A stretch of DNA of 64,000 nucleotides from assembly GCA_017509715.1 (NCBI GenBank), contig JAFWOU010000019.1:62001-126000 (forward strand), written 5' to 3'. Under the pieces are notes generated by a model. That model did not search any database and was not told where the DNA came from. It was given only the letters and a program-made list of their open reading frames with translations. A program made the translations under genes and the position numbers. Below, piece after piece: positions 5,087 to 47,372 of the stretch (its first letter is position 1; every line of letters begins with the position of its first letter). Source of the stretch: Paludibacteraceae bacterium (GTDB taxonomy: Bacteria > Bacteroidota > Bacteroidia > Bacteroidales > Paludibacteraceae).

Positions 5087-5114
5087 AGTCGAAAGTCGAA
5101 AGTCAAAAGTCAAA
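5087..5114. repeat. Four-word element, word AGTCGAA/AGTCAAA (mdh-spt junction)
   Basis: Four 7-base words followed by AGC sit between the mdh stop (5084) and the spt start (5124). Including one base before and the AGC, the element is 32 bases (5086-5117), the same length as the copies at 6306, 12331, 12823 and 27118. Confidence 0.95.
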
Positions 5115-5123
5115 AGCTTTTAT

Positions 5124-6305: not shown

Positions 6306-6337
6306 TAGTCGAAAGTCGATAGTCAAAAGTCGAAAGC
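6306..6337. repeat. Four-word element, word AGTCGAA, filling the spt-SDR junction
   Basis: The 32-base element (base + four AGTCGAA-type words + AGC) begins on the base after the spt TAA and ends on the base before the ATG of the next gene. The whole intergenic gap is therefore the repeat. Confidence 0.97.
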
Positions 6338-11791: not shown

Positions 11792-13235
11792 CATTTTTGC
11801 CGAAATCAATCAGATTCCTCGCCCCTCCAAGCACGAGGAGCGTATCTCACAGTGGTTGCAAGAATGGGCCAAAGCACATCAAATCGAGTGCGTGGCCGAC
11901 GAGTCGATGAACGTCATCATGCGCGTACCGGCTACGCCGGGTTATGAGGACCACGAGGGCGTGATCCTGCAGGCCCATATGGATATGGTGTGCGAGAAGA
12001 ACGGCGACGTAGAGCACGACTTTATGAACGACCCGATCCAGACATGGGTGGATGGCGAGTGGCTAAAGGCCAAGGGGACGACCCTGGGGGCAGACAACGG
12101 TATCGGTATCGCGATGGCACTGGCCGCTATCAGCAATCCGGACCTGAAGCACCCCGCTATCGAGTGCTTGTTTACGGTGGACGAAGAGACGGGGCTCACC
12201 GGTGCATTCCGCCTGAAGGACGGTATGCTGCGTGGCAAACGCCTCATCAACCTGGACTCGGAAGATGACGGCCAAATCTTCATCGGTTGCGCCGGAGGTA
12301 TTGATACCTTGGCTAAGATGCACTATGAGCCAGTCGAAAGCGGAAAGTCGAAAGTCGAAAGCATCGGTATCCGTCTCTCCGTGACGGGACTGATGGGTGG
12401 TCACTCGGGCGATGATATCAACAAGGGACGTGCGAATGCCAACCAGTTGCTCGTCTTCTTCCTGGCCCGTATCTGGCCCAAGACGGAGGTGCAACTGGCA
12501 CAGATTAACGGTGGTAACCTGCGCAACGCTATTGCCCGTGAGGCCGAAGCGGTCATCAGCATCCCGATGGCGTACAAGGAGCAGATACGTATCGAGTGGA
12601 ACCAGTATGTGGCCCAGATGGAAGGTGTGTTTGGTGAAGTAGAGAAAGATATGCGCATGGAGCTGGAGACCTGCGACCTGCCGGAGCTGTATGTGCCGGC
12701 CGAGAAGGCCTATCGTCTGATCCTGGCGCTCTGCGAGTGTCCGCACGGCATGATCGCTATGAGCAAGGAGATGCCGGGACTGGTAGAAACCAGTACGAAC
12801 CTGGCGTCTGTGAAGATGAAAACAGTCGAAAGTCAAAAGTCGAAAGTCGAAAGCTATATAGAGGTGAATACCTCGCAGCGTTCGTCGATCGAGCAGAGCA
12901 AGCACCACCTGAAATGGGCGGTAGAGCAAGCCCTCTCGTTGGCTTGTGACGAAGTGACCCACGGCGACGGTTATCCGGGTTGGGCACCTAATCCCAAGTC
13001 GGCATTGCTGGATGTGACCAAAGCGGCGTATGAGGAGTTGTTCCATGCCGAACCGCAGGTACTGGCTATCCATGCCGGACTGGAGTGCGGTCTGTTCCTG
13101 GAGAAATACCCGTACCTGGATATGGTATCTATCGGTCCGCAGATGTACGGCGTGCATTCGCCGCAGGAGCGTCTGTCGATCCCCAGCACGGAGCGTTGCT
13201 ACAAGTGGCTCTGCCGCGTATTGGAGAAGCTGTAA
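11769..13235 (+). CDS. pepD: Aminoacyl-histidine dipeptidase (peptidase D, M20)
   Basis: A 488-residue dizinc dipeptidase that hydrolyses Xaa-His and other dipeptides in the cytoplasm. Metal motifs in order: LQAHMDMVCEK (about 72-82), GADNGIG (about 110-116), the catalytic pair in DEETGLTGA (about 138-146), NLDSED (about 159-164) and a C-terminal histidine in AIHAGLECG (about 437-445). VTGLMGGHSGDD lies in the dimerisation lid. Two four-word repeats interrupt the coding sequence in frame and encode VESGKSKVES and VESQKSKVES, both in segments that vary in the family. It is followed by a repeat and a bidirectional terminator. Confidence 0.95.
   Translation: MEPKAVFDIFAEINQIPRPSKHEERISQWLQEWAKAHQIECVADESMNVIMRVPATPGYEDHEGVILQAHMDMVCEKNGDVEHDFMNDPIQTWVDGEWLKAKGTTLGADNGIGIAMALAAISNPDLKHPAIECLFTVDEETGLTGAFRLKDGMLRGKRLINLDSEDDGQIFIGCAGGIDTLAKMHYEPVESGKSKVESIGIRLSVTGLMGGHSGDDINKGRANANQLLVFFLARIWPKTEVQLAQINGGNLRNAIAREAEAVISIPMAYKEQIRIEWNQYVAQMEGVFGEVEKDMRMELETCDLPELYVPAEKAYRLILALCECPHGMIAMSKEMPGLVETSTNLASVKMKTVESQKSKVESYIEVNTSQRSSIEQSKHHLKWAVEQALSLACDEVTHGDGYPGWAPNPKSALLDVTKAAYEELFHAEPQVLAIHAGLECGLFLEKYPYLDMVSIGPQMYGVHSPQERLSIPSTERCYKWLCRVLEKL
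12331..12362. repeat. Four-word element, word AGTCGAA, inside pepD (copy 1)
   Basis: A 32-base element in frame, encoding VESGKSKVES at the point where the catalytic domain passes into the lid domain. Nearly identical to the copies at 12823 and 27118. Confidence 0.95.
12823..12854. repeat. Four-word element, word AGTCGAA, inside pepD (copy 2)
   Basis: A 32-base element in frame, encoding VESQKSKVES within the lid domain. It differs from the rsmA copy (27118-27149) at only one base. Confidence 0.95.
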
Positions 13236-22607: not shown

Positions 22608-25600
22608 GGTATTAGTCGTTTTTCGGTCCAGACGGTATCGCCCTGTTGGTAACGATAGAGGTAGATACCGCGGGTGAGTTGGTCTTCACGAACGGGCAGG
22701 CCGTGACAATTGAAGATGTGAACTTGTAGTTGGTCGTTAGTCGTTGGTCGTTGGACGTTTATTTCCAGGATGTTGGACCAGATAGTCTGGTTGCCGTCCA
22801 ATTCGATACGCAGTTGGAATCGTCCGTGCAGCTCGTTCTGCTCGGAGTAGTCGTCATCGGTGGCACCGGGTATAGGTTGTTCGTTTTTAAACCATTGGAA
22901 AGCTCGTGCGGTACGATCCGGGAAGAGTCGTCGGAGCGTCACGTTGTCCAGGAGCAACTGCCAATTGTATTTATTGACGATTATGGGATACAACCGCTCA
23001 CAATGGATAGTATCAAGGTGGAGGGTATAAATAGAATCTATACAATCCCATTGGGGGTGCTGAAATTCCAGAAGGAGATCTCCTGCCATTTTAAAAGTCA
23101 GTACTGTATCTCTAAAATACAAAGTATATGGGAGCAAGGTATCACATAGAGTTCCTATGGTTATTGTTTTCTCTTTAATTTCCGGGCAACAATGTTCCAT
23201 AATTACATTCAATATGTAATAAATACTATCTGCCCCACTACTATCATATACCGTGTCGCGTAATTCATTTTTCAATGGATAGATCTTATTCCGCCATGTG
23301 ATAGCATCAATAGTGTCGCAAATGATTGTGTCCACACGAGTTGCCTGCGGTATTTGGCACAGCCGTAACTCAATATCATCAATACCGAAATCATTCCCTT
23401 CATGACCATGCATATAAGCATACATATTCACCTCTATAGCACTAAGGTCAGTCGGCAAGGTGAAATTCGTGCCGACGATATGCCAATTGGACATTTCAGA
23501 GTGCGTTGCTATGGGCATTTCTGAGGGAATGCAGTTGGCAAGAACCTCTTGTGTGTCCGAATTAATCAATTGAATCAATATCTTCGGCAACTGATATTCA
23601 CCATCGTGGATATTGTCGTGCAGATTAATAACATAGGCCGAAAAAGATAACACATCACCTTCTGCACCTCCAGACAGAAAAGTACTATAGAATAGATGGT
23701 TATTGGCACCTTCAATCATTAAAAAGTATCCGCGAGAAGCATCGTTCGGATATGAGTGGTCTTCACGATCTACCCACTGATGATTGTAATAGCCTTGATC
23801 TTTCTTCGTTAAACGATAATAGCCTTCAGGTAACCTGCCGGTGGTATTACATCCATTTCGGTACAGAATACTCGGATTGTTTATGCACGACACATCCGGG
23901 TCGTTAGGGGCGTTGCCACCGAAGTCTTCTCTAAAAAGCAATTTTCCTTCCAGACAAAAGTCTTCGCAATGGAATGTGCTTAACGTGTAATCAATCTCTA
24001 TACTATCGCAACCCTGTTCATCCTTCAGTAATATGGTTTGTGAACCGGGTTTATTGAACAGCAGTCCGTGCCACGTGAAAGGCATAAGGGTGTCGCAGAC
24101 GGTAGTATCACGAGTAGCGTAGTGTATTTCGGGGCAAGGCGATTCACAATGTTCCGTTTCCACGCGCATCAGGTAGTATATGCTGTCAAAACCACAAGAG
24201 CTACGAAGAGTGTCGCGCAGGGTGTCTACGATTGCGTACTCTTTGCCGCGCCACGCAATCTGATCGATAGTGTCGCAGACCGTCGTGTCCGTCCGTATCG
24301 TATCGGGCGTCATGCAGAGGTGGACCTCGATGTCATCGATGGCGAAGTCGTTGCCGTTGGAATTGCTGACATTGTTGTAGATAGACAGTTGCACAGACTC
24401 AACACCTACCGGGACGGTAAAATTCATACCGACAAGATGCCATTCTACGGATTGTTGCCAACACATATTATCGCCGATAAAGGTGGAGTCGAACGGTATG
24501 TCGCCTGTGTCGTAAGTAGCTAACTCTGTGTTAGATGTAGGATCCGTTAAGACAAACTTCAGTCGTGGGTACGCATACATACCCGGGCGACCTACGTACA
24601 TGCCCCAGGTCATGACGTTGGCCACGTAGGCAGAGAAAGTCAACTCGATACCTTCGCAAAGATGGTCGATGGTGGTACGATAAAAAGCGTCACTACCTGC
24701 TCGGCCGTCTATCTCCATAAAATAGCCACGGGTCAAGTCTCCGAAATGGGTATGGTCGTCTTGGAGATGCCATTGTGACGTACCATTTCCGTTGCAATAT
24801 CCCTGTTTAGTCACCAGATATTTTCCTGCACCCATGCTACCGAGTACATCTGTTGTCGCTTGGGTATAGCTCATGCCGGAAACAGGAGTCGTACTGATTT
24901 TCGGGTCGGAGGGGTTGTTGCCGCCGAAATCCTCGCGGAAGAGGAGAATGCCATCGGTACAGAGCGCATGTTCGCAATTTTCCTTTTCCACGTGCATGAC
25001 ATAATAGATGCTATCAAAGCCGCAGGTACTAAAGAGGGTGTCGCGGAGGGTGTCGGCTATAGCGAATGTCTTTTCGCGCCAACGGATTTGTCGGGTGGTA
25101 TCGCAGACGGTGGTATCGGTAAGGATGGTGTCAGGCGTCATGCAGAGGTGGACCTCGATATCATCGATGGCGAAATCGTTGCCATTACCGTTGGTGACGT
25201 TGTTGTAGATAGACAGACGGATGGCATTGACACCGACGGGGACGGTAAAGTTCATACCGACAAGGTGCCATTGAGAAGAATACTGCCAATCGGTTTTGGC
25301 TGGTAGGTTCTCGTCAAAAGGAATCTCTTTGGTGTTCTTTTCCGCTAAGGTCGCACCTGTTTGCGGATTCGTTAGAACAAACTTCAAACAAGGAGAAATA
25401 ACCGGTCCACGATTGCGCGTGTACCAATCGTATTGGAACCACGTGAACACATTGGCTACGTAGGCGCTGAAGGTCAGCTCGATTCCTTCGCATAGACCGC
25501 TAATCTCAGTTTCGTAGAATTGTTGGTTGCCGCCGTTGCCGTCTATTTCCATGAAATAGCCGCGCGAGTAGTCGTTGGAATAAGTGTGGTCGTCCTGAAT

Positions 25601-27029: not shown

Positions 27030-27863
27030 ATGCAACAAGTACGTGCCAAAAAATTTTTGGGGCAGCACTTTTTGACGGACCTCACGGTCGCCCAAAGAAT
27101 AGCTGAAACCCTTAATCCGGTCGAAAGTCAAAAGTCGAAAGTCGAAAGCCAAGTTGGCGAGAGAATTCGAGTTATTGAAGTTGGTCCGGGTATGGGTGTG
27201 TTGACGCAATATCTTCTGAAAAATCCACAAATAGACCTTACCGCCATTGAGATCGACCGGGAGTCGGTCGCTTACCTGCGTGAGTGGTACCCGGAGCTGA
27301 AGCTGGTGGAGGGGGATTTTTTGAAACTGGATCTGAATGAACTCATACCGGAAGGGGAGTTCAACGTGATAGGTAATTATCCGTACAATATCTCGAGCCA
27401 AATATTCTTCAAGGTGCTGGAGTACAAAGACCGTATTCCGGTTTGCTCGGGTATGATCCAGAAAGAGGTGGCCGAACGGCTGGCCTCGAAGCCCGGCAAG
27501 AAAGCCTACGGTATACTGAGTGTGCTGCTACAAGCATACTACGATATAGAATATTTATTTACAGTAGATGAACATGTGTTCAACCCGCCGCCAAAAGTGA
27601 AGTCGGCCGTGATACGCATGACACGCAACAAACGACGACGGTTGGACTGCGACGAGGTGCTGTTTAAGACCGTGGTGAAGACTGCCTTCAACCAACGACG
27701 AAAACAGATGAGGAACTCACTTCGATCGTTGATCGATGTACAAAGTGACAATGTACAAGGTACAAAGGAGCGACTCGAATGGTTCCTCACCCGAAGACCG
27801 GAACAGCTAAGCGTAGAAGAATTTGTTGAACTTACAAAACTGATTGAAACATGTCGGAACTGA
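27030..27863 (+). CDS. rsmA: 16S rRNA dimethyladenosine transferase
   Basis: A 277-residue SAM-dependent enzyme that dimethylates two adjacent adenines at the 3' end of 16S rRNA during 30S assembly. Motifs: FLGQHFL (about 9-15), VIEVGPGMGVLT (about 47-58), the acidic AIEID, and the catalytic NYPYNIS (about 116-122). Between the N-terminal helix and the SAM motif, VESQKSKVES is encoded by a four-word repeat. A second such repeat encodes QSDNVQG near the C-terminus. The upstream leader holds RNA candidate 1. The stop overlaps corA by 13 bases. Confidence 0.95.
   Translation: MQQVRAKKFLGQHFLTDLTVAQRIAETLNPVESQKSKVESQVGERIRVIEVGPGMGVLTQYLLKNPQIDLTAIEIDRESVAYLREWYPELKLVEGDFLKLDLNELIPEGEFNVIGNYPYNISSQIFFKVLEYKDRIPVCSGMIQKEVAERLASKPGKKAYGILSVLLQAYYDIEYLFTVDEHVFNPPPKVKSAVIRMTRNKRRRLDCDEVLFKTVVKTAFNQRRKQMRNSLRSLIDVQSDNVQGTKERLEWFLTRRPEQLSVEEFVELTKLIETCRN
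27118..27149. repeat. Four-word element, word AGTCGAA, inside rsmA
   Basis: A 32-base element in frame encoding VESQKSKVES; one base different from the second pepD copy 14 kb away. Confidence 0.96.
27737..27764. repeat. Four-word element, word ATGTACA, inside rsmA
   Basis: TGTACAA, AGTGACA, ATGTACA, AGGTACA and AAG in frame, encoding the loop VQSDNVQGTK in the C-terminal helical domain. Confidence 0.85.
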
Positions 27864-38476: not shown

Positions 38477-38504
38477 CTATAACCCGTAACCTATAACCCG
38501 TAAC
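38477..38504. repeat. Four-word element, word CCGTAAC (GGGTTAT)
   Basis: Four 7-base words encode the last residues (RVIGYGL) and the stop codon of the nuclease gene on the minus strand, so the repeat sets the C-terminus. Confidence 0.95.
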
Positions 38505-41635: not shown

Positions 41636-41711
41636 ATCCCGTAACCTGTAACCCGTAACCCGTAACCTATAACCCGTAACCCGTAACCCGTAACCCGTAA
41701 CCCATTAACCT
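41636..41711. repeat. Array of about ten 7-base words (CCGTAAC) filling the lolD-gldB gap
   Basis: The array starts on the base after the gldB start codon (minus strand) and reaches the lolD stop. All 76 bases between the genes are GGGTTAC-type words. Confidence 0.96.
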
Positions 41712-42947: not shown

Positions 42948-44768
42948 TCAGCGCGTTATTTGATGCAATAATTGCTCGTAAACGGCTGAACCTCTTTTAG
43001 TTCCAAGCAAATTCTGCCATTCCTCTATCCCTGCGCTTCTAGCGCGCTGGATAGAACCGAAATGAAGCAGTATTTTTTGTTTCGTAACAGCACCAACTCC
43101 CTGTAAATCATCCAGTTGACTACTTGTCTGTGACTTGCTGCGGCGCGATTTGTGATACGTGATGGCAAATCGATGCACCTCATCCTGGATCTGAACCATC
43201 AGTCGGAACACATCGCTCGTGATCGGCATCCCGATCTCGCTCGGCGGAAAACCATACAGCAGCGTTTGGGTGCGGTGCTTGTCGTTTTTCTTCAGTCCCG
43301 CTATCGGTATCTGCAGTCCCAATTGGTTCTCCACCACCTCTCGGATAGCCTCCATTTGTCCGATACCACCGTCTGCAATGATCAAATCCGGTAGCCCCTG
43401 TCCGTCCTCTATCAGGTGCGCATAGCGTCTCCTTACTACCTCACGCATGCTCGCATAGTCGTCAGAGCCGGTGAAATCGTGAATTATAAAGCGTTTGTAC
43501 TCACTTTTCTTCGCCTTACCTCTCCGGAACACCACGCAACCCGCTACAGCCTCTTTTCCCTGGATGTGCGAGTTGTCAAAACTGTCGATCCAATCGGGCA
43601 TTTTCGGCAAATGTAGCATGTCTTTTAGTTCACTCAAAATGCGCGTAGCACGTTGATCAGGGTTCAGTTTATCGGCTTGCTGCAATCGATCCCGCTTATA
43701 TTGCGCTACGTTGCGCTGCGCCAACTCCAGAAGTTGCTTCCTATCGCCCGTTACGCCGATATGAATCCGCAAGGTTTCGTCGAATCCATCGGGCATAAAC
43801 GGCACCAGTACATCCCGCGTCGTGCTCTGCAGTTGCTGTCTTAGTTCGTACATTCCGGTAGCTAGCATTTGCTCACGTGTCTCATCCAGCTGCCTACGGT
43901 ACTCCACGGTCTGCCCCTGCACGATACTTCCGTTATGCACATGCAGCATGGCTATATAGATATTCTGATCCTGCTCGTCGTAGCCAAATACATCCAGGTC
44001 GGTTACCGATGAATTCGAGATAATCGTCTTGCTGCAGAACTGATGAAGCAGTTCCAGTTTCCGTTTCATCTCCCCGGCTTCCTCATACCGCATCTGCTGC
44101 GCTAATATCATCATCTCCCTTTCCATTTGCTGCACGATCTCATGCGCATCACCCTTGATGATCTTTCTTGCAGCCTCAATCCATCCTCTATATTCCTCTC
44201 GTCCGTAGCCCTCGCATACGCCGCAGCAGCGCTTAATATGGTATTTCAGGCATACTTTATGCTTCTTTTTCTCGATTTCATCGGACGTAATATGCATTGT
44301 GCACGTCCGTATGGGAAACAGCTGATGTATCAGCTCCAGCGCTATATCTACCGTATTCCCGAAGCTATAGGGTCCATAGTACTCCCCCAAGCCCTTCTGA
44401 ATAGTGCGCGTCTTGAATATTCTTGGGAATTCTTCTCGCGTAATACATATACTGGGATACGATTTTCCGTCCTTCAGCAGGATATTATAGCGCGGTTGGT
44501 ATTGCTTGATCAAGTTGTTCTCCAGCAGAAAAGCATCTTGTTCCGACTCTACTACCACATACCGTATATCCGCTATATTGGCTACCAATTGGCGTGTTTT
44601 AGAGGAGGGTTGGTCTTTCTGAAAGTAACTATTCACGCGTCTTCTCAGGTTTTTCGCCTTACCAACGTATATGATAGTACCCTCAGCGTCCAGATGCTGG
44701 TACACACCCGGTTTCTCAGGTATGCGCCGTAGTAATTGAGCGATATGTTCACTTACTCCTTTCGCCAT
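42948..44768 (-). CDS. uvrC: Excinuclease ABC subunit C
   Basis: A 606-residue nuclease that makes both incisions in nucleotide excision repair. The GIY-YIG domain (PGVYQHLDAEGTIIYVGKA, about 18-36) is N-terminal, the UVR motif (IVQQMEREMMILAQQMRYEEA) is near 208-228, the RNase-H-like endonuclease carries SFDNSHIQGKEAVAG (about 397), and the helix-hairpin-helix is at the end (LQGVGAVTKQKILLHFGS). The start codon lies inside a repeat: its first codons ATGGCGAAAGGAG continue the GGCGAAT words. Confidence 0.96.
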   Translation of the reverse strand: MAKGVSEHIAQLLRRIPEKPGVYQHLDAEGTIIYVGKAKNLRRRVNSYFQKDQPSSKTRQLVANIADIRYVVVESEQDAFLLENNLIKQYQPRYNILLKDGKSYPSICITREEFPRIFKTRTIQKGLGEYYGPYSFGNTVDIALELIHQLFPIRTCTMHITSDEIEKKKHKVCLKYHIKRCCGVCEGYGREEYRGWIEAARKIIKGDAHEIVQQMEREMMILAQQMRYEEAGEMKRKLELLHQFCSKTIISNSSVTDLDVFGYDEQDQNIYIAMLHVHNGSIVQGQTVEYRRQLDETREQMLATGMYELRQQLQSTTRDVLVPFMPDGFDETLRIHIGVTGDRKQLLELAQRNVAQYKRDRLQQADKLNPDQRATRILSELKDMLHLPKMPDWIDSFDNSHIQGKEAVAGCVVFRRGKAKKSEYKRFIIHDFTGSDDYASMREVVRRRYAHLIEDGQGLPDLIIADGGIGQMEAIREVVENQLGLQIPIAGLKKNDKHRTQTLLYGFPPSEIGMPITSDVFRLMVQIQDEVHRFAITYHKSRRSKSQTSSQLDDLQGVGAVTKQKILLHFGSIQRARSAGIEEWQNLLGTKRGSAVYEQLLHQITR

Positions 44769-44813: not shown

Positions 44814-45353
44814 TTATTCATCTACTTCGATGCTGAATAGGCAATCCAGGTCGTCGGCTTTTCCCTCCAGGTATTTGCGACCGTTCAGGCCGTCCAACTC
44901 GATGATGCAGTTGACATAAATCTTCTTAACACCCAGTTTCTTTACCAGGTTAATAGCTGCTTCCATTGATCCGCCTGTAGCCAGTATGTCATCGTGAATC
45001 AGCACCACGTCCTCCGGACTGAGCGCGTCCTTATGTATCTGGATCGTATCGTCGCCGTACTCCTTGGCATACGTTACGGAAACCGTCTCGGCCGGTAACT
45101 TATTGTGCTTGCGGATTGGTACAAAGCCTGCCCCGATCTCCATAGCTATAGCCGGCGCCAGTATGAATCCACGCGACTCAATACCTACTACCTGCGTAAT
45201 ACCCAAGTCTTTGTACCGACTTACAATCTCGTCACGCATCCAGACGAGGCAGTCATGACGGGCCAGCGCCGTTGTGATATCCTTGAACTGTATGCCCGGT
45301 ATCGGAAAATCAGGCACGTTGCGAATCGCATTTTTTACTTCTTCTGCTGTCAT
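44814..45353 (-). CDS. apt: Adenine phosphoribosyltransferase
   Basis: A 179-residue salvage enzyme forming AMP from adenine and PRPP. The PRPP loop VLIHDDILATGGSMEAAI (about 117-134), the GIESRGFILAPAIA strand (about 56-69) and the FVPIRKHNKLP segment are typical. Length matches the family. Leftward operon with uvrC. Confidence 0.95.
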   Translation of the reverse strand: MTAEEVKNAIRNVPDFPIPGIQFKDITTALARHDCLVWMRDEIVSRYKDLGITQVVGIESRGFILAPAIAMEIGAGFVPIRKHNKLPAETVSVTYAKEYGDDTIQIHKDALSPEDVVLIHDDILATGGSMEAAINLVKKLGVKKIYVNCIIELDGLNGRKYLEGKADDLDCLFSIEVDE

Positions 45354-45371: not shown

Positions 45372-45403
45372 TCTTTCGACTTTCGACTTTTGTCTTTCGA
45401 CTA
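45372..45403. repeat. Four-word element, word AGTCGAA (minus strand)
   Basis: Base + AGTCGAA, AGACAAA, AGTCGAA, AGTCGAA + AGA on the minus strand, in the mnmG-apt gap, next to parS. Confidence 0.94.
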
Positions 45404-45409
45404 TTCCAT

Positions 45410-45425
45410 TGTTTCACGTGGAACA
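45410..45425. other. parS chromosome-partition site (ParB binding)
   Basis: The 16-mer TGTTTCACGTGGAACA, on the minus strand TGTTCCACGTGAAACA, is an exact match to the bacterial parS consensus. ParB-family proteins nucleate here and spread; parS sites cluster near the replication origin. It lies between two repeat elements in the mnmG-apt gap. No other full match was noticed in this window. Confidence 0.85.
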
Positions 45426-45458
45426 ATTCCACTTTGTTTGCTTTGCAAACAAAAAATC

Positions 45459-45490
45459 AAACGACCAACGACCAACGACAAACGACCAGT
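45459..45490. repeat. Four-word element, word AACGACC, after mnmG
   Basis: Base + four AACGACC words + AGT, 32 bases, 4 bases from the mnmG stop. The same word as in the T9SS cargo gene, 23 kb away. Confidence 0.94.
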
Positions 45491-45494
45491 CTCG

Positions 45495-47372
45495 CTATCT
45501 CCCCATCATTACCAGCAATACGCTCACGTCGTTAGGACTTACGCCCGGTATGCGACTGGCCTGACTGATCGTGCGTGGCTGGATGCGGTTTAGTTTCTGT
45601 CGTGCCTCCGTAGAGAGGGATTGCAGTTGGTTGTAGTCGTAGTTCTCCGGCAGCGGAATGCGGTCGAGTCGCTGCAGTTTCTCGGCGGCTTGCCGCTCGC
45701 GCAATATATAGCCCTCGTACTTGATCTGTATCTCGGTTTCCTCGATCGCCTCTTCGTTATTTATTTCGTCGAGTAGGGCGCGCAATCCGGGAACGGCTTC
45801 GGCCAGGGCATGAATAGTAATCTGCGGACGGGTAACGAGTTCGCGTAGCCGTACGCTATGCTGCAGTCCGCCTGTACCTTGCTGTTCAAGCCATGCGGAG
45901 ATATCAGCCGATTTTATAAGTGTTTCGTTCAGATAGGCCTCTATCCGAGCGATAGCCGCTTGCTTCTCGGCAAATACCTCGCGGCGGTGGCTATCGGCCA
46001 TGCCGAGCTCGATGGCACGTGGCGTCAGTCGCTGGTCGGCATTGTCCTGACGCAGCAGGATACGATGCTCGGCGCGTGAGGTGAACATGCGGTAGGGCTC
46101 GTCCACGCCCTTGCATATCAGGTCGTCGATCAGTACGCCTATATAGCTCTCGTCCCGTCCCATCGTGAAGGCGGGCAGATCGTGCACAGCCTGGTGCGCA
46201 TTAATGCCGGCTACCAGTCCCTGTCCGGCCGCTTCCTCATAACCGGTCGTACCGTTGATCTGTCCGGCAAAGAAGAGACGCTTTACGAGACGTGTCTCCA
46301 GCGTGTGATGAAGCTGCGTAGGGTCGAAGAAATCGTACTCTATAGCGTATCCCGGGCGGTACATAACGACGTGCTCCAGGCCGGGCACGGTGCGTAGTCC
46401 GTCCAGTTGCACCTTCCATGGTAGCGAGGACGAGAAGCCGTTGACGTAGTACTCGTTGCTATCTACGCCCTCCGGCTCCAGGAAGAGCTGATGGGCGGGT
46501 TTGTCGGCAAAGGTGACGATCTTGGTCTCGATCGACGGGCAGTAGCGCGGACCGATACTCTGGATTTGTCCGTTGAAAAGGGGCGAATCTTTTAGTCCGC
46601 CGCGTAGCGTCTCGTGCGTACGCTCGTTGGTATACGTGATCCAGCACGACATCTGCTTCAGTCGCCGAGTAGCCTCCGGCAAGTACGAGAAATGATGCCA
46701 GTCCGGATCGCCCGGTTGCTCCTGAAGTGCGTTGAAATCGATACTTCTTCGATCTATACGTGCCGGCGTACCGGTCTTCATCCTGTCGGTGCGGAACCCG
46801 AGCGATCGGAGCTGTTCGGTCAGTCCGTACGAAGCGGGTTCGGCTGTGCGACCTCCCTGCACTTGCGTTGATCCTACGTGCATCAGCCCGTTTAGGAACG
46901 TACCGTTGGTCAGCACCACGGCCCTCGCGCTCATCTCAATACCCAGCATGGTCCTGACGCCGCATACTGCGCCGTCTCTTAGGATGAGTTCGCATGCTGT
47001 GTCTTGCCATATATGCAGATTATCCGTACCGGTGAGCGTCTCTACCCATTGCTCGATGAAGCGCTTCCTATCGCTCTGACTGCGCGGACTCCACATAGCC
47101 GGTCCCTTGCTGCGATTCAGCATGCGAAACTGGATGGCTGTGCGGTCCGTTACCTCAGCCATCTTACCCCCAAGCGCGTCTATCTCCCTGACAATCTGTC
47201 CCTTGGCGATACCTCCAACGGCCGGATTACAACTCATCTGGCCAATCGTATTCATATTCATCGTGATCAGCAGCGTCCGGCTACCCAGACGGGCAGCGGC
47301 GTGGGCAGCTTCGCAACCGGCATGTCCGGCTCCTACTACGATGACGTCGTATTCAAATTCACTTTTCTTCAT
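45495..47372 (-). CDS. mnmG: tRNA uridine 5-carboxymethylaminomethyl modification enzyme MnmG (GidA)
   Basis: A 625-residue FAD protein that with MnmE modifies U34 of several tRNAs. GAGHAGCEAA (about 13-22) binds FAD; CNPAVGGIAKG (about 48-58), GTFLNGLMHVG and the C-terminal helical domain with LTPRAIELG and EIQIKYEGY are diagnostic. In many bacteria this gene sits near the origin, which fits the parS site beside it. Confidence 0.96.
   Translation of the reverse strand: MKKSEFEYDVIVVGAGHAGCEAAHAAARLGSRTLLITMNMNTIGQMSCNPAVGGIAKGQIVREIDALGGKMAEVTDRTAIQFRMLNRSKGPAMWSPRSQSDRKRFIEQWVETLTGTDNLHIWQDTACELILRDGAVCGVRTMLGIEMSARAVVLTNGTFLNGLMHVGSTQVQGGRTAEPASYGLTEQLRSLGFRTDRMKTGTPARIDRRSIDFNALQEQPGDPDWHHFSYLPEATRRLKQMSCWITYTNERTHETLRGGLKDSPLFNGQIQSIGPRYCPSIETKIVTFADKPAHQLFLEPEGVDSNEYYVNGFSSSLPWKVQLDGLRTVPGLEHVVMYRPGYAIEYDFFDPTQLHHTLETRLVKRLFFAGQINGTTGYEEAAGQGLVAGINAHQAVHDLPAFTMGRDESYIGVLIDDLICKGVDEPYRMFTSRAEHRILLRQDNADQRLTPRAIELGMADSHRREVFAEKQAAIARIEAYLNETLIKSADISAWLEQQGTGGLQHSVRLRELVTRPQITIHALAEAVPGLRALLDEINNEEAIEETEIQIKYEGYILRERQAAEKLQRLDRIPLPENYDYNQLQSLSTEARQKLNRIQPRTISQASRIPGVSPNDVSVLLVMMGR

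Follow-up and report, generated by a model that had tools for sequence, protein, structure and literature searches.

What is the 16-bp sequence that lies beside mnmG in this Paludibacteraceae chromosome, and does its position tell us where replication begins? The original prediction held that it is an exact parS centromere site that probably places the DNA in the origin domain.

Sequence, uniqueness and cognate ParB of the site

Reading the window (the whole 64,000-nucleotide stretch analysed, C18:62001-126000) directly, we found TGTTTCACGTGGAACA at 45410-45425, which verified both the claimed match to parS over all 16 bases and its place next to mnmG. The sequence, to which no strand is assigned and which reads TGTTCCACGTGAAACA on the mnmG strand, is an imperfect palindrome with two mismatches against its own reverse complement; it fits TGTTYCACGTGRAACA in full and matches the palindromic motif TGTTNCACGTGNAACA exactly. 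It lies in the 141-bp intergenic gap between mnmG and apt, 69 bp beyond the stop codon of mnmG (gidA; 45495-47372, minus strand; TIGR00136, 816.7 bits), which encodes a tRNA uridine-5-carboxymethylaminomethyl synthesis enzyme. Downstream of the site are the adenine phosphoribosyltransferase gene apt (44814-45353, minus strand; NCBIfam apt equivalog models above cut-off) and uvrC (42948-44768, minus strand; TIGR00194, 497 bits), the next gene in a conserved mnmG-apt-uvrC run. No second match to the site exists in the window at up to three mismatches, and the search for further copies that the original prediction had proposed returned the site as the one match at up to two mismatches in the draft genome (2,379,847 bases, ~2.38 Mb, 42 contigs). 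Base composition predicts ~0.00003 matches per window and 0.001 per genome, so that the site is rare and yet far in excess of chance. The motif is short, as a functionless chance match would require, but this reading is negligible in probability given the expectation of 0.001 per genome, and it is refuted by the recurrence of this motif next to mnmG in the majority of the genomes sampled from the phylum (see below).

The genome encodes one ParB with an HTH_ParB domain (Pfam HTH_ParB, 127 bits; TIGR00180, 189.8 bits). Its gene (L161:10099-10929) adjoins parA (L161:9334-10095) on contig C4, directly downstream of the ParA ATPase, and dnaA is on C39, so the window, parAB and dnaA fall on separate contigs of the draft. 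ParB carries GERRFRA, the CTP-binding motif, and its HTH region has the equivalents of Caulobacter Q162, G170, K171, R173, N178, G201 and R204, the residues that contact parS in co-crystal work (PMC7383237); the position of Caulobacter S172 is occupied by K, as it is in B. fragilis. Noc is a ParB paralogue from a related protein family, and its binding site (NBS), which we also considered, is a palindrome related to the one studied here. Residues R173 and G201 set ParB apart from Noc (PMC7383237), and the ParB of this genome has both, in contrast to the Q173 and R201 of the Noc type; against the Noc model TIGR04285 it scores 238 bits, under the 315-bit cut-off, and the site is of the parS kind at the two bases that separate parS from NBS. 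An NBS was rejected on these grounds.

Compared with the chromosomal parS sites that have been described (consensus TGTTTCACGTGAAACA; PMC10197239, PMC7383237), the site has 14/14 fixed positions of the motif, and it is likewise palindromic, intergenic, low in copy number and accompanied by a cognate ParB in which the known contact residues are present. It differs in that the assembly contains one site only, in that this site neighbours mnmG and neither parAB nor dnaA, and in that its half-sites are mixed (position 5 is T and position 12 is G). From its uniqueness, the ParA-ParB pair and its conservation at the side of mnmG, of which the comparative evidence is the strongest, we conclude that the site is very probably (roughly 93%) the one parS that a ParA-ParB-parS system uses on this chromosome, a prediction made from sequence. 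If the system behaves like established ParABS systems, ParB dimers, made from contig C4 together with ParA, would bind the 16-bp palindrome as their nucleation site, bound ParB would shut into CTP-loaded clamps that would slide to the DNA around mnmG, and ParA would move the resulting ParB-DNA complex and so segregate the freshly copied region.

Position beside mnmG across the Bacteroidota

We located the motif and MnmG in each of 148 Bacteroidales genomes. The motif is present in 95 of them and a reversed control pattern in 1/148; among the 55 genomes with listed site coordinates, this one included, 52 have parS at 300 bp or less from mnmG. Where the strict motif is missing, a form with one or two mismatches is mostly present at mnmG (33 of the 41 genomes examined), usually 0-20 bp from the gene. 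When 80 named Bacteroidales loci were inspected, 78 had the site downstream of mnmG, at most 500 bp from the stop codon (median, 8 bp), and the remaining two had it ~3.5 kb away. Throughout the phylum-wide sample the association persists, 41/44 genomes with listed sites having one no further than 300 bp from the gene. In that sample the site is mostly 5' of mnmG and often present on both sides (47 five-prime placements, which include one G165 site inside mnmG that leaves the totals by genome unaffected, versus 21 on the other side). Information content in the named loci reaches 1.9-2.0 bits at 13 positions, a peak somewhat inflated because the sites were chosen by similarity, and is ~1 bit at three others (position 1 and the two degenerate positions), against 0.1-0.7 bits in the flanks; constraint thus falls on the 16-mer itself. 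The identity of the site as parS and its tie to mnmG, which the original prediction had noted for a single genome, gain strong support from conservation across the phylum, alongside the genome-wide uniqueness and the cognate ParB.

The close spacing to the mnmG stop codon in the named loci would also suit a palindrome that works as RNA, that is, a hairpin or terminator conserved for the end of the mnmG transcript, and perfect-palindrome versions of the site could make a 6-bp stem. Nevertheless, the commonest combination at positions 5 and 12 on the mnmG strand is the stem-breaking C..A (30/78), to which the site studied here belongs, whereas the pairing T..G accounts for 14/78; the sequence itself is fixed beyond what pairing alone would need, the phylum-wide placements lie mostly 5' of the gene, and the gap folds no better than its shuffles (z = -0.88). 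Half-sites unlike those of an RNA stem, together with the lack of any excess in folding, point to recognition as double-stranded DNA, and we rejected an RNA hairpin or intrinsic terminator, which we consider very improbable, on the half-site combinations and the fold score.

A further rival is an operator, centred on CACGTG, through which a different regulator would act on apt or mnmG, and the site does lie in the gap upstream of apt. In this genus and family the gene order is mnmG-parS-apt-uvrC or mnmG-parS-uvrC, and across the 80 named loci the gene downstream of the site is apt in 58, uvrC in 11, and another gene or none in 11. The downstream gene varies and the site stays, indicating that the site tracks mnmG and not the neighbour of mnmG, which led us to reject a regulatory site for apt. 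An operator of either gene is further opposed by the occurrence of the site on either side of mnmG, by its uniqueness in the genome and by the fit of all 16 bp to the known ParB target, so that we give such a regulator scant likelihood.

The absence of the site from three of four genomes without ParB, in a small sample, also argues against an unrelated regulator. We tested 19 hand-picked genomes for ParB. In 11 of the 15 with ParB a site is present at mnmG; G083, G051 and G070, three of the four without ParB, have no site at mnmG, and the fourth, G129 (91% complete), has a site there with no ParB found. No recognisable site beside mnmG was seen in the stretch read of G001, G109 and G079 (L203, L230, L222), which encode ParB and in which parS may have moved or been altered, nor in G142, which also has ParB and whose contig ends close to mnmG. 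The co-occurrence of ParB and site in a hand-picked sample of this size is only suggestive.

In a sister genus the site itself has changed. G136 (L288:1501-1516) and G302 (L289:920-935) carry the perfect palindrome TGTTCCGCGCGGAACA exactly at the place of parS; in G319, which belongs to that genus as well, the sites are canonical. The alteration (CACGTG to CGCGCG) falls at position 6 in the numbering of PMC7383237, the core position by which parS and Noc sites are told apart. The ParB of G136 has Ala at the G201 position, but so does that of G120, whose sites have the canonical core; Ala alone therefore does not explain TGTTCCGCGCGGAACA. These variants, set against the corresponding ParB sequences, form a natural collection in which changes of ParB specificity could be tested.

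In eight loci (L204, L209, L210, L221, L232, L236, L079 and L105) a parS-like site overlaps the stop codon of mnmG (TAGTTCCACGTG...).

GC skew near the site and the meaning of the mnmG address

The prediction of an origin-domain location relied on mnmG often being close to the origin, and for four relatives with closed genomes this held by GC skew. The origin-type switch in GC skew (negative to positive) is at ~4.49 Mb in B. fragilis Q1F2, with the site at 4.597 Mb, and at ~1.60-1.65 Mb in G120, with mnmG at 1.673 Mb; in G213 and G205 it falls inside a bracket that extends ~30-50 kb to either side of mnmG. All four thus have the switch within ~110 kb of mnmG, and in a fifth closed relative, G181, the skew is too weak for a verdict. 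The distance between dnaA and mnmG is ~0.95 Mb in B. fragilis and 1.2 Mb in G120, so that mnmG-parS is the better marker of the origin region in these two genomes, in agreement with the remark that dnaA is unreliable as an origin marker in a published set (PMC10197239).

In the genus to which the window belongs the skew runs the other way. Contig C18, on which we carried out the proposed skew check, changes from positive to negative at ~100 kb, with the site at 107.4 kb, and fourfold-degenerate sites agree with this change. Two congeners behave alike, with positive-to-negative changes at ~181 kb in G353 (site at 227.3 kb) and ~271 kb in G361 (site at 335.1 kb), and in G353 no origin-type minimum was found in the 100 kb to the right of the site, where skew is mostly negative. 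In all three the change lies 7-64 kb from the site, is opposite to the origin type and leaves these contigs, as far as they reach, with no origin signature. An origin further to the right, an inversion of the segment, or a parting of centromere and origin could each account for this pattern. The evidence that this locus may belong to the origin domain of its own chromosome is mixed, the skew near mnmG in the closed relatives speaking for it and the opposite switches on C18, G353 and G361 speaking against it.

The persistence of the parS address at mnmG, together with the skew mismatch in the genus, is the notable part of these results; sites of the parS type are well known as such. Within the same phylum, Hi-C data link the parS clusters of Bacteroides caecimuris and Muribaculum intestinale to the origin domain, and no known condensin was found in two published genomes (PMC10197239). 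Neither mnmG nor gidA is named in that paper, and our literature search, which did not extend to the parS survey of Livny et al. (2007), found no description of the mnmG address, for which we claim no priority. A tentative interpretation, which we hold to be possible but rather less than even in its odds, is that the Bacteroidota centromere is anchored to mnmG and not to parAB, dnaA or strictly the origin, that a single-site centromere has drifted off the origin in this genus, and that in a sister genus (G136, G302) the site has changed at the core position that determines specificity. In this genus, then, the centromere and the origin defined by skew may have separated. For Bacteroidota genomes, drafts included, the address supplies a one-line rule by which to find the centromere, namely to inspect the ends of mnmG, and such a rule is useful in a group in which dnaA is a poor marker of the origin.

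Other repeats in the mnmG-apt gap

The site had been described as lying between two four-word elements, and these are genuine arrays with a 7-bp period, one of CTTTCGA / TCGAAAG at 45373-45402 and one of AACGACC / GGTCGTT at 45460-45488, both outside parS and without an assigned strand. Such arrays are not specific to parS, as similar ones occupy many other gaps in the window, and visual inspection of the corresponding mnmG-apt gap in eight congeners revealed no evident array. Accordingly, we rejected the idea that the flanking arrays are part of the centromere. Besides the two in this gap, arrays occur in the window at 5087-5116, 6307-6336, 12332-12361, 12824-12853, 22729-22759 and 27120-27148, and further ones at 1678-1736, 38477-38504 and 41638-41711; they share a few unit types (GTCGAAA, GTCGTTG, TAACCCG) and their frequency is far above chance.

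An inverted repeat, TTTGTTTGC-TTT-GCAAACAAA (45433-45453, no strand assigned), lies between mnmG and parS. Inspection by eye revealed inverted repeats of different sequence with kept pairing at the same place, between the mnmG stop codon and parS, in three congeners (L265, L271 and L273).
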